23,919 bases of DNA, taken from positions 1-23,919 of IMG/VR virus record IMGVR_UViG_3300020401_000092; one strand, given 5' to 3'. Below are positions 12,023-19,395 of this stretch, piece by piece. This DNA is from a virus. Under the pieces are notes generated by a model, which was given only the letters and a program-made list of their open reading frames with translations, made no database searches and was not told where the DNA came from. Within the stretch, counting starts at the first letter, position 1, and each line of letters starts with the position of its first letter. The position numbers and the translations under genes are program-made.

Positions 12023-12508
12023 GCTTGCCGCCTCATCCAAAGCCTGACGCAACAGCGACACTGGCGTATCTTTCGACCATTTCCAATTAAGCCTATGCGC
12101 CCACGTGGTTGCAAACTCACCATGACCACACACGCCGATTAGCACAGATGCTTGCCGCAACGTTAGACGCCCCAACACGTCACGCACTTGCTCCCTCGAA
12201 TAGACTTCATCATCTACCCCACCGCCTACTCCCGCACTTGCGCCATATCTCGCTGTGACCCTGTTTTGATGAACAGACCTGTAATAGTGTTGCCGAAAAA
12301 GGTTACCAGCTTCGTATTGTTTGTCAGTCAGCAAGCTTCGATGCAACATTACATCTAATGGGTGTTCATATCTCACACGGCGAACAGTCTGCACAGCCTT
12401 ACCGCCTTTAGGTTTAAACGCTACATCATCAACTGGACTATGTTGGCTTCTCTCTGGCGTTTCTCGTAACTCTGGCGGCTCTAATGCTTCTTTCTTTTTA
12501 CTCATCAT
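12008..12508 (-). CDS. DUF6456-like protein in the replication operon
   Basis: A 166-residue protein with a disordered charged N-terminus (about 1-45), then RRVRYEHPLDVMLHRSLLTD and KQYEAGNLFRQHYYRS, and a C-terminal helical part (DVLGRLTLRQASVLIGVCGH). The HPLD...L...QYEAG..FR..Y pattern resembles, from memory, the alphaproteobacterial/phage DUF6456 family, of unknown function and probably DNA-related. The start overlaps the DnaA-like gene's 3' end by 11 bases, and AAGG lies directly before. Being the last gene of the replication operon suggests a regulatory or replication-accessory role. Confidence 0.55.
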   Translation of the reverse strand: MMSKKKEALEPPELRETPERSQHSPVDDVAFKPKGGKAVQTVRRVRYEHPLDVMLHRSLLTDKQYEAGNLFRQHYYRSVHQNRVTARYGASAGVGGGVDDEVYSREQVRDVLGRLTLRQASVLIGVCGHGEFATTWAHRLNWKWSKDTPVSLLRQALDEAASLWKL

Positions 12509-13031
12509 ACCTTTCCAGATATATATGTTGTCGGCGTAAAATCCATGAATTTAGATTTTCTTCGATGACTTGTAACCGCTCTGCAAAGTCAGCATCTTGC
12601 ATAATTTTGTCTTTTATTACTTTTACACCATGCAAGACAGTCGTGTGATCACGCTCTAACATTCTGGCAATTTGTGTTACACCCATACTGCGACAATGTT
12701 TTTCAGCTAAATACATTACTACCTGACGTGGCAATGCAATGTGTGACGTTCTGTTTTGCAGATTGAAATTACACATTGGGTCTAAATCGAACTCTTGCGC
12801 CACAAACTCTTTAATCTGTGCAAACACTTCAGCCTCTTTGTAGCGTGTGTTGATAGCATGATTTAGTGATAGGTGAGGTTCTACGGCAAGCTGTTCTGAC
12901 AATTTGCTAACCAGCCACGCCGTCTTTTTGTCATCCATTGCGTAGTCAATAACAGGCTTCGCTTGGCCTTGTATAAAAATTTGTAGCCGTAACGGTTGAC
13001 CGCCGTGTTTTGGAAATACGTTTAATCGCAT
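12498..13031 (-). CDS. DnaA domain IV (DNA-binding) protein without the AAA+ part
   Basis: A 177-residue protein. Residues about 90-150 match the DnaA C-terminal DNA-binding domain: SHIALPRQVVMYLAEKHC, MGVTQIARMLERDHTTVLHG, VKVIKDKI. The DHTTV signature (128-132), which contacts the DnaA box, is intact. The N-terminal 85 residues (VFPKHGGQPLRLQIFIQGQA and a helical part) are not the ATPase and are unfamiliar. GAGG lies before the ATG; the gene overlaps the initiator's end by 10 bases. It may bind DnaA boxes on phage or host origins, aiding phage initiation or blocking host initiation. The domain assignment is firm; the role is inference. Confidence 0.82.
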   Translation of the reverse strand: MRLNVFPKHGGQPLRLQIFIQGQAKPVIDYAMDDKKTAWLVSKLSEQLAVEPHLSLNHAINTRYKEAEVFAQIKEFVAQEFDLDPMCNFNLQNRTSHIALPRQVVMYLAEKHCRSMGVTQIARMLERDHTTVLHGVKVIKDKIMQDADFAERLQVIEENLNSWILRRQHIYLERYDE

Positions 13032-17561: not shown

Positions 17562-17607
17562 TCACCACATATGCCTTTCTACCGTAATAACGTCGATGGT
17601 AATTCAC
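17461..17607 (-). CDS. Cysteine-rich metallothionein-like microprotein
   Basis: A 48-residue protein with eight Cys packed into residues 21-39: CTCEDCQCNCNPRTCACKC, i.e. four CxC pairs-like spacings, no Trp or Phe, an N-terminal basic/Tyr stretch (NYHRRYYGRKAYVV) and an acidic end (NEKDADEE). Such a pattern binds d10 metals (Zn, Cu, Cd) in metallothioneins; here this is inferred from the residues alone. The start is GTG at 17607, forming a GTGA four-base overlap with the endolysin stop, the same device as at 18776-18779, which strongly supports translation. It is the last gene of the lysis operon and lies antisense to the end of the plus-strand gene 17211-17561. Confidence 0.7.
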   Translation of the reverse strand: MNYHRRYYGRKAYVVTTEKKCTCEDCQCNCNPRTCACKCQNEKDADEE

Positions 17608-18050
17608 GATAAAAACAAACGGCGTTCATCCAATCGCCGTAGCTGTAGACCCTTGAGTTTGCGGCCCGACGCAAAACACCACTTAGGAAACTCATCAGCG
17701 GCCTGTTCATTGCGTTCTGCTAATATATGTTTACGGAGTGTAGACGCTTTTAGACTTCTGCTACCAAGATTATAACAAAAACTAACGAGTGCAGAGTATT
17801 GATTAACGTTCAAAAAGTGCAAAGGGATAAGTCTACTAACACTTTTTTCGTAACTGATTAGCTGTTGTTCAAGTAGGTCTAACGCTTCTTCTTGTGTAAC
17901 AGGCGGCGTATCTTTTGACACACGGCTACCATCCAGCAATCTAGTTGCTCCGTACCCAATCGTGAACACACCTCCGCTACAAATATATGGATCACTGCGA
18001 AAACCTTCCCACTTGCGAATTAGCGCTTTTCCTTCACTGTTCGTTTTCAT
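17604..18050 (-). CDS. Endolysin, GH24 muramidase (T4/P22-lysozyme type)
   Basis: A 148-residue peptidoglycan hydrolase that cuts the MurNAc-GlcNAc bond. The catalytic block KWEGFRSDPYICSGGVFTIG shows Glu15, Cys24 and Thr30 with E-x8-C-x5-T spacing, the E-C/D-T triad of this family; Cys in place of Asp is known in P22/R21-type enzymes. Also present are GYG after it and the NVNQYSALVSFCYNLGSRSL helix. No signal peptide or N-terminal SAR helix is seen, so it depends on a holin for release. I chose ATG 18050 (MKTNSEGKALIRKW); it overlaps the MscS-like gene by 17 bases. It ends in GTGA with the Cys-rich gene. Confidence 0.92.
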   Translation of the reverse strand: MKTNSEGKALIRKWEGFRSDPYICSGGVFTIGYGATRLLDGSRVSKDTPPVTQEEALDLLEQQLISYEKSVSRLIPLHFLNVNQYSALVSFCYNLGSRSLKASTLRKHILAERNEQAADEFPKWCFASGRKLKGLQLRRLDERRLFLS

Positions 18051-18369
18051 TGATTTGCTGGATAACACGGCTAATGTTCATAAAATCAAGACGGCTATTT
18101 GGCACGTGCCGCCATAACGTTTGACCGTCATGTTGCGTCTGAAATATTGTTTCATATAAACCGACTTTAATAATTAATGCTTGTTGTGTGCCGTCAATAA
18201 TTACCAAATCACCGCTATTGAAAGCTTCGCCCATGATAAATTTAACGCCACATAAAAAATTAGTTATTGCGTTTTTTAAAGCCAAACCGATTATCAACGA
18301 TAACGACAAGGCAAGAATTGGCGTTAGCCACACTGCTACATCTAGGCTTATTTTGTCTATCTGTTCCAT
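18034..18369 (-). CDS. Minimal MscS-like channel protein (pore helix plus beta domain)
   Basis: A 111-residue protein. Residues about 10-36 form a membrane helix (VAVWLTPILALSLSLIIGLA), followed by LKNAITNFLCGVKFIMGEAF, NSGDLVIIDG, and a beta domain ending in WRHVPNSRLDFMNISRV. This reproduces, in order, the MscS TM3 kink (GLALxxxxxNFxxGxxI), the xPFxxGDxVxI strand and the IPNSxLxxxxIxNxSR end. Known MscS proteins have two more helices and a C-terminal cage; both are missing, and the ORF ends soon after the motif. It lies directly upstream of the endolysin (17-base overlap) among lysis genes, so it may act as, or modulate, a membrane channel at lysis. Fold assignment is firm, function is inference. 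Confidence 0.82.
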   Translation of the reverse strand: MEQIDKISLDVAVWLTPILALSLSLIIGLALKNAITNFLCGVKFIMGEAFNSGDLVIIDGTQQALIIKVGLYETIFQTQHDGQTLWRHVPNSRLDFMNISRVIQQINENEQ

Positions 18370-18600
18370 TTAACATTTCCAACGCTTTCGGCTTAACCGT
18401 AATGGGCTGTTTGGATTTCTTGCAGACTTTGGAAACTTCTTCATCTGACCAGCACTACGCTTGCAATACGCCCTCTGACGTGCAGAGCCTTGCTTACCAA
18501 TTGTCGCGCCCTTTTGTCCATAACTGACTTTTCTAGTGCGGCCTGTTTTCGAGTTTTTGACAGTTTTAACCCTAGCCTTACCTTTTGCTGGCGTTGCCAT
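18370..18600 (-). CDS. Basic 76-residue protein of a widespread small phage family
   Basis: Starts MATPAKGKARVKTVKNSKTG, then RTRKVSYGQKGATIGKQGSA, and ends NPNSPLRLSRKRWKC. About a third of residues are Lys or Arg; there are two Cys (CKRSAG and the last residue). The start and the NPNSPxxLSRxxWKC end match, from memory, a small conserved family of environmental phages (possibly DUF6321). The ATG overlaps the upstream stop by one base (TAATG) and the stop abuts the MscS-like start. A nucleic-acid binding or virion-associated role is likely. Confidence 0.65.
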   Translation of the reverse strand: MATPAKGKARVKTVKNSKTGRTRKVSYGQKGATIGKQGSARQRAYCKRSAGQMKKFPKSARNPNSPLRLSRKRWKC

Positions 18601-18779
18601 TAGGCTCTTCTCGTTCTGCGCTTATTAGGTTTTTTTGCTGTTTTAGCCGCCGCTTTAAACGCTTTGTCAGTTGGCGCACCCTTACTGTTAGGTTTACGCA
18701 TCCTCTCTGGTTTTTTACCAGCCGCTTTTTGTGCTTTTATACGTTCTCTTTTTCTATGGATATTTCTGTAAAGACTCAC
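18600..18779 (-). CDS. Basic 59-residue protein with GTG start
   Basis: Reads (M)SLYRNIHRKRERIKAQKAAG, KKPERMRKPNSKGAPTDKAF, then KAAAKTAKKPNKRRTRRA. The pattern SLYxNIHxKRxRI...ERMRKPxSKGAPTxxxFxxAAKTAK is one I know from small phage proteins found near structural genes. GTG at 18779 forms GTGA with the upstream stop and has AGGGA six bases before it. 24 of 59 residues are Lys or Arg, so DNA or RNA binding is likely; function not established. With the next gene it forms a pair of basic proteins. Confidence 0.75.
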   Translation of the reverse strand: MSLYRNIHRKRERIKAQKAAGKKPERMRKPNSKGAPTDKAFKAAAKTAKKPNKRRTRRA

Positions 18780-18940
18780 TTTTTATCCCTTTCGTTCCAC
18801 AGTTGAAATAACGTTCGTACTTTTTCTTCCAGTACGTCCAAGCGATTAAACGCTTTAGCAAATAGAACAATAGCCGCCGTGACAGCCACAAGCACAGGCC
18901 AAATAGCGTTGAAAATATCCAGTAATGTTGCACCTTCCAT
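18776..18940 (-). CDS. 54-residue single-pass membrane protein
   Basis: Starts MEGATLLDIFNAIWPVLVAV, TAAIVLFAKAF is the rest of the helix (about 13-32), and an amphipathic charged tail follows (NRLDVLEEKVRTLFQLWNER). Helix plus short coiled coil is the design of holin-accessory and XhlA-like proteins in reverse order. Directly below the 3TM holin (five bases apart) and above two basic genes, with GTGA at its end. A lysis or envelope role is inferred. Confidence 0.7.
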   Translation of the reverse strand: MEGATLLDIFNAIWPVLVAVTAAIVLFAKAFNRLDVLEEKVRTLFQLWNERDKK

Positions 18941-18945
18941 TGCAA

Positions 18946-19395
18946 TTACCTTTTCTGAAACATACGACTGCCGAAATAGAAACTAATGATAGCCGCTAAA
19001 ATAGGGCTGTCTACTGATTCGTTCCATATTAAAGGCAATGCGTCAGCCGCCACAACACCGTTTGCCATAGCGTTCCATAAACACACGGCTTTAATTCCTA
19101 GATAAGCGCCAAGAAAAGCAAACGCTATTGTAGGCCGCACCATCGCCCTGTAAGTGCCAACCCAACCGTCATTCTTCTCATGCGCTTTACTGGCATACAA
19201 AGCTACCATCTCATTACTCATGCTTTCGACGTGCGCTTGCTCTAGTTGATACTTTGCCGTTTGCTCCGCAAGCTGGGCCTGTTTTTCGAGCATTGCAAGT
19301 TCATGGGCATTACTTTGTTTTTGTTCGAAGTAGCCAAGTATTTTTGGCAGAAAGCTAGTGCCAAAACCTAACAATGATCCAAGAATAGTGAGCAA
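18946..19395 (-). CDS. Holin, three-helix GTA type
   Basis: A 149-residue membrane protein. An N-terminal hydrophobic/amphipathic stretch (LTILGSLLGFGTSFLPKILG) leads into a long charged coiled coil (about 26-70), then VRPTIAFAFLGAYLGIKAVC and a last helix SPILAAIISFYFGSRMFQ. The VRP...AF...YL and final FxFGSR pattern fits, from memory, the GTA_holin_3TM family (PF11351), whose members open the inner membrane for endolysin release. The start is uncertain: no ATG is available; TTG 19395 is used here, but a CTG at 19413 would give LNWLSSLLTILGS, a very natural beginning. Neither has a clear ribosome site. Confidence 0.75.
   Translation of the reverse strand: MLTILGSLLGFGTSFLPKILGYFEQKQSNAHELAMLEKQAQLAEQTAKYQLEQAHVESMSNEMVALYASKAHEKNDGWVGTYRAMVRPTIAFAFLGAYLGIKAVCLWNAMANGVVAADALPLIWNESVDSPILAAIISFYFGSRMFQKR

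Follow-up and report, generated by a model that had tools for sequence, protein, structure and literature searches.

The marine viral contig analysed here (IMG/VR record IMGVR_UViG_3300020401_000092, 23,919 nucleotides, hereafter the window) encodes, within its lysis cassette, a minimal MscS protein of 111 residues made of the TM3 pore helix and the beta domain. As judged by sequence comparison, this protein belongs to a recurrent and conserved phage family of the same architecture, a truncation that has been described as restricted to microsporidia (PMC11262690). The homology to MscS, the truncation, the selection acting on the gene and its linkage to lysis modules in multiple lineages were all established computationally. 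We give somewhat less than even chances to the reading that this phage-specific protein is an accessory pore, predicted to lie in the inner membrane, which takes part in the timing of lysis. The data suggest that phages may have reused the core of a pressure channel to help control the moment at which infected cells burst.

Fold and boundaries of the window protein

The gene, assigned by sequence profile, AlphaFold model and Foldseek, lies on the minus strand at positions 18034..18369, with its ATG at 18369 and its stop at 18034. The 111-residue ORF of the original prediction was recovered at exactly these coordinates, the strand being minus; frame 1 of the plus strand over the same interval is rich in stop codons and is not the coding strand.

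The Pfam profile PF00924 matched the window protein at 19.9 bits (E 7.9e-4), the curated cut-off being 20.2, and relatives at 99% and 81% identity passed this cut-off with 20.4 and 24.8 bits; L002, L003 and L004 stand above it. In a sequence search of the PDB, the 18 best matches of the window protein were all MscS-family channels. A profile of five other MscS proteins scored it at 45.2 bits, whereas 10,000 shuffles reached at most 13.9 bits and none of the other ORFs of the window (190 in all) exceeded 5.0 bits, and hhalign aligned the window family (A1) with the same profile at an E of 8.5e-11. The profile of the wider phage family (A6) retrieved only MscS-family chains from the PDB, with weak scores (best E 0.0048). 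The window protein is homologous to MscS at the domain level (TM3 and beta domain), and these values bear out the earlier claim that the pore helix and the beta domain of MscS extend over nearly the full ORF.

AlphaFold2, run on an eight-sequence alignment, gave a model (pLDDT 77, pTM 0.57) which presents one long helix followed by the beta domain. The predicted helix comprises residues 2-47 (TM3a/TM3b; 18229..18366, minus strand, from the AlphaFold secondary structure) and the beta domain residues 54-102 (18064..18210, minus strand, from model and alignment), with the signature D59-G60, E73 and W86. Comparison of this model with the PDB, which had been put forward as a check of the MscS-like TM3/beta fold, found that fold: the 50 best structural matches all belong to the MscS family, the top one being the open form of E. 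coli MscS (E 1.9e-5). The eight-sequence alignment took in other MscS proteins, so that this evidence for the fold is not fully independent. When only close relatives were supplied, the model was poor (pLDDT 54), the order of helix and strands was similar, and the best Foldseek match, weak at an E of 0.14, was again an MscS-like channel, AtMSL10.

In the alignment, the first residue of the ORF falls at the TM3 boundary and the last one just past the beta domain. TM1 and TM2 and the C-terminal alpha/beta cage are absent, as the original prediction had stated for the outer helices and the cage, and the protein has one hydrophobic segment. The gate positions L105 and L109 of E. coli MscS fall in the alignment columns of L25 and L29 of the window protein, which are hydrophobic in 14/14 family rows, and positions 24 and 28 are occupied by small residues in all 14. 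These 14 rows represent 13 distinct sequences; D59-G60, E73 and W86 are invariant among them, and each has K or R at positions 32 and 43. None of the 15 rows of other MscS proteins used for comparison shows E73, W86 (part of an insertion of three residues) or a basic residue at position 43. Two residues of E. coli MscS thought to be structurally important, P129 and G143, are replaced in all family rows, so the pore may gate or conduct in a way unlike MscS.

Between the window gene and that of L002, dN is 0.011 and dS 0.49; against L004 (81% identity), 4 second-position and 56 third-position differences were counted, dS being saturated in this pair. Purifying selection on the MscS ORF is strong, and the gene is maintained. 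We rejected the idea of a passenger, that is, a functionless and decayed fragment of a host mscS, on these grounds and on those of its recurrence in about six lineages. The missing TM1, TM2 and cage would fit such a fragment, but the lineages share boundaries and derived residues and show tight gene overlaps, and, together with the selection, this brings its probability close to nil.

Gene order and proposed division of labour in the lysis cassette

The genes of the cassette run in one direction, in the order 149-aa holin-like ORF, 54-aa single-TM ORF, 59-aa basic ORF, 76-aa basic ORF, MscS and endolysin. The holin-like ORF (18946..19395, minus strand, TTG start) matches phrog_6637 with an E of 6.1e-20 and the Pfam family GTA_holin_3TM (PF11351) with an E of 0.0027, at 18.7 bits, below the cut-off of 24.8. 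The listed function of phrog_6637 is unknown, and its members adjoin GH24 endolysins in most of the surveyed loci. The weak GTA_holin_3TM match together with this GH24 neighbourhood indicates that phrog_6637 is probably a holin family, and we infer the companion ORF to be a holin.

The 54-aa ORF (TM54; 18776..18940, minus strand), relatives of which also adjoin MscS in L149, L162 and L165, is followed by two very basic ORFs with no assigned function, one of 59 aa (18600..18779, minus strand, phrog_16028) and one of 76 aa (18370..18600, minus strand). Thus the run of membrane genes seen by the original prediction holds for the holin-like and single-TM ORFs upstream of MscS, and is interrupted by the two basic ORFs that intervene. 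Small, very basic ORFs recur in lysis cassettes, in combinations that change from one to the other (window 18370-18779; L008:5406-5854; L149:2946-3634).

The stop of the 76-aa ORF abuts the MscS start in a TAA-ATG junction, and at its other end the MscS gene overlaps that of the GH24 endolysin. When ATG at 18050 is taken as the endolysin start, the endolysin (148 aa, assigned by Pfam and PHROGs) lies at 17604..18050 on the minus strand and the overlap is 17 nt (18034..18050, minus strand); with GTG at 18068 as start, the endolysin has 154 aa and the overlap is 35 nt. The overlap with the endolysin start that had been noticed from the letters is borne out with either codon. The 17-nt overlap is consistent with translational coupling, and the RNA fold at the MscS/endolysin junction gave no signal above shuffles.

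The endolysin matches Pfam Phage_lysozyme with an E of 3.5e-35 and phrog_7 (endolysin) with an E of 1.4e-46, and E15-C24-T30 occupy, in the alignment, the positions of the E-D-T triad of GH24. A cysteine stands at position 24, where the triad aspartate is expected; the L019 relative has an aspartate there. In the hydropathy profile of the endolysin, no 19-residue window reached a mean of at least 1.6 and no hydrophobic N-terminal segment was found. A pinholin was rejected as a candidate, given that the endolysin has no SAR or signal segment in this profile.

Considering that the endolysin has no hydrophobic N-terminal segment, a large hole would be needed for its release. A pore of the size of that of MscS is of the order of 1 nm and should not pass the endolysin; this, together with the separate holin-like gene, leads us to read the MscS protein as accessory, and the hole through which the endolysin escapes is probably not made by it. 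The original prediction had proposed a mechanosensitive holin. A membrane protein in the lysis module it is, but a holin in the strict sense is weakened by the separate holin-like gene and by the non-SAR endolysin. Nor is it the only holin candidate, a separate 3-TM holin-like gene being present in the window and in 17 of the 20 relative contigs examined.

For the accessory pore, we infer topology, oligomeric state, conductance and effect on lysis timing as follows. The protein would insert in the host inner membrane with its N-terminus outside and its beta domain in the cytoplasm, a topology predicted from how TM3 is oriented in MscS and from the basic character of positions 32 and 43. It would assemble in a ring, expected to be a heptamer, through the small-residue face of TM3 and contacts of the beta domain. 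The resulting leak of ions or solutes, possibly dependent on tension or voltage, would help to set when the 3-TM holin triggers, and the leak, a depolarisation or a contact could bring triggering forward or put it off. Release of the endolysin would occur through a hole made by the separate holin and not by the MscS protein. In a more far-reaching form of this proposal, which we consider quite unlikely, the TM3-beta ring would be a physical sensor of lysis, opened late by tension or voltage, that triggers or restrains the companion holin; if this were true, the mechanical condition of the cell would decide when lysis occurs in several marine phage lineages.

Elsewhere in the window, a 177-aa ORF (12498-13031, minus strand) contains a DnaA C-terminal DNA-binding domain (PF08299, E 1.6e-15). 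It is too short to hold the DnaA ATPase and is possibly a phage replication or decoy protein.

Lineages of the family and other occupants of the slot

An endolysin profile retrieved 80 loci from IMG/VR, and 19 of these encode a relative of the window protein (107-115 aa, except that an upstream start extends one ORF call to 125 aa). One further relative, L165 (116 aa), was obtained when bacterial genomes were scanned with an MscS-family profile. Its contig, which was placed in the bin of a Pirellulales MAG (station ALOHA), bears an ORF that by eye resembles a phage integrase, and its gene order (holin-like, TM54, MscS, lysin) is that of the window minus the two basic ORFs. No further match was found in 199 genomes from the class of this MAG, and a first scan of genome contigs found no relative.

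In total there are 20 relatives of 107-116 aa, almost all from uncultured viral contigs, which by tree and gene order form about six lineages. The contigs within a lineage are near-copies, so the number of lineages is the honest count. The proposed search of environmental phages for this ORF beside GH24 lysins therefore has a positive outcome, the ORF recurring in about six lineages with holin-like and GH24 genes.

Most relatives overlap the GH24 endolysin gene, the 3-TM holin-like gene or both, and the gene orders vary. MscS overlaps the lysin in the window type and, by 14 nt, in L165. It lies between the holin-like gene and the lysin in L123/124/125/127, overlapping both as the ORFs are called, and overlaps the holin-like gene by 4 nt in L143/150/154/156/158/159/161. 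In L149/162 it is located 0.6-0.9 kb downstream of the lysin and has a 4-nt overlap with a TM54-type gene, and in L140/144/164 about 1.5 kb separate it from the holin-like gene and the lysin, which lie downstream. Since most relatives were gathered around lysins, nearness alone is partly a product of construction; the start-stop overlaps, and L165, which was found by an MscS profile and not by a lysin, are free of this lysin-centred sampling.

In the tree, a branch supported at 100/100 separates the phage family from ordinary MscS and from the short viral MscS proteins L029 and L033. The latter two (L029:4078-4473 and L033:5625-6191) are cage-less viral MscS proteins of 131 and 188 aa, well above the Pfam cut-offs, encoded on unrelated viral contigs and not beside a GH24 lysin; they came from a DNA-pattern search that otherwise gave mostly full-length MscS of host-derived look. 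A 378-aa MscS recorded for Microcystis phage MaAM05, whose gene lies between purB and glgX, was left out because it is full-length and its sequence is probably bacterial. MscS matches in short 'phage' records of Salmonella, Listeria and faecal origin were left out as probable host contamination.

Identity between the lineages of the family is 22-42%. This value bears on the explanation that the phage protein is a dominant-negative subunit, which would enter host MscS heptamers and disable or lock them, blocking pressure relief at lysis. TM3 and the beta domain are common to both proteins, and both make subunit contacts in MscS. However, identity to E. coli MscS is about 25% over the modelled overlap, the 3-residue insertion and other derived features make mixed rings unlikely, and the identity between lineages is unlike that of a protein that tracks a host channel. 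We hold this explanation to be very improbable.

In the nearest sister phages, the slot before the lysin holds an unrelated protein of 92-95 aa that combines an EF-hand-like loop with two TM segments (92-94 aa in L008:5851-6135, L010:5639-5923, L011:6824-7102, L013:7090-7374 and L014:6824-7108). The sequence of the loop is DRDGDGIISAEE, with a Pfam EF-hand score under the cut-off, and homologues of the protein adjoin endolysin genes in the cultured Roseobacter phages CRP-9 and CRP-207. From these features, it could be a calcium-responsive membrane protein of lysis. MscS (19) and this two-TM protein (16) never occur together in the 80 loci, for which the chance would be 0.008 if the loci were independent, which they are not. 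No MscS was found elsewhere in eight records that have none in the slot, searched whole (15-51 kb), nor by Pfam in a set of 18 records.

In favour of the accessory pore count the MscS homology and fold, the strong selection, the retained hydrophobic gate with small residues still at 24 and 28, the tight overlaps in several lineages and gene orders (L165 included), and the presence of a different two-TM protein in the same slot of sister phages, never together with MscS. Against it count the many related lysis loci that do without MscS, the holin-like gene abutting the lysin directly in 38 of the 80, and the distance of MscS from these genes in L140/144/164 and in L149/162.

The same loci bear on an antiholin-like partner, a non-conducting TM3-beta ring or monomer that would delay triggering by binding, at the membrane, either the 3-TM holin or the endolysin. 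Antiholins are often small membrane proteins beside the holin (PMC7182436), the MscS gene adjoins or overlaps holin-like or lysin genes, and E73 and W86, invariant in this family only and located outside the pore, suggest a phage-specific contact. Nevertheless, the gate positions and small packing residues are kept beyond the needs of a mere anchor, and the family is missing from many loci with the same holin family, so that we regard a partner of this kind as rather unlikely.

We are similarly doubtful of an osmotic safety valve, that is, a channel which would vent solutes late in infection and prevent the cell from bursting before the virions are ready, where the wall is weak or the outside salt low. 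This would agree with the known role of MscS, with the retained hydrophobic gate positions and with the other osmotic genes, including MscL, that are carried by estuarine and coastal viral contigs (PMC13288924). On the other hand, TM1 and TM2, the tension sensors in MscS, are missing, the gene overlaps lysis genes rather than being isolated or placed among early genes, and there are sister phages without any MscS gene.

Comparison with known systems

For the accessory pore, the interest lies in an ion-channel core placed within phage lysis cassettes, where the control of holin triggering is poorly understood. At 107-116 residues, the family is also a natural channel core in which the capacities of an MscS pore lacking sensor helices and cage can be studied, and it gives an annotation signature for proteins that are mostly under the Pfam cut-off and have no significant PHROGs family (best E 0.005, scattered). 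A tblastn search of 50,697 phage records with the window protein, L154, L125 and L140 retrieved nothing at E <= 1. In the openly accessible literature, we found no paper that connects MscS or a mechanosensitive channel with phage lysis, and in this scope the earlier statement that no phage lysis system of this kind has been described holds.

Among phage proteins, gp51 of Paraglaciecola phage PANV1 has an HHpred match to MscS and was reported without a lysis role (PMC9239159), and three BFVD proteins of 104-138 aa (A0A516MLU7, A0A1B1IQW5 and A0A516LVN0) have an MscS-like predicted fold (E <= 1e-4); these four may belong to the phage MscS family. For MscL, viral genes are reported from coastal waters (PMC13288924). 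The closest known relation of the companion holin-like ORF, whose PF11351 match is below the cut-off, is the family of ICP1 TeaA, a GTA_holin_3TM holin for which a nearby membrane antiholin, ArrA, tunes lysis timing (PMC7182436).

E. coli MscS (PDB 4hwa, 2vv5) is the best structural match of the phage protein; unlike it, it has TM1, TM2 and a large cytoplasmic cage and does not present the W86-type insertion, and its Q112, like P129 and G143, is replaced in the phage family. The MscS of Trypanosoma cruzi (PDB 9bgq, 174 aa; structural match E 1.1e-3) is a small protein solved as a heptamer, but it is longer than the phage protein, eukaryotic and without a link to lysis. The nearest in architecture is MscS2 of the microsporidian Nematocida displodere, which, like the phage protein, is an MscS cut to a TM3-like helix and the beta domain. 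Its authors considered the N-terminal truncation to be, to their knowledge, unique to microsporidia (PMC11262690). MscS2 differs in being a gene of bacterial origin in a eukaryotic parasite, associated with no virus or lysis module. Its cryo-EM structure is a heptamer with a central pore (PMC11262690), which shows that TM3 and the beta domain alone are able to form such a ring.
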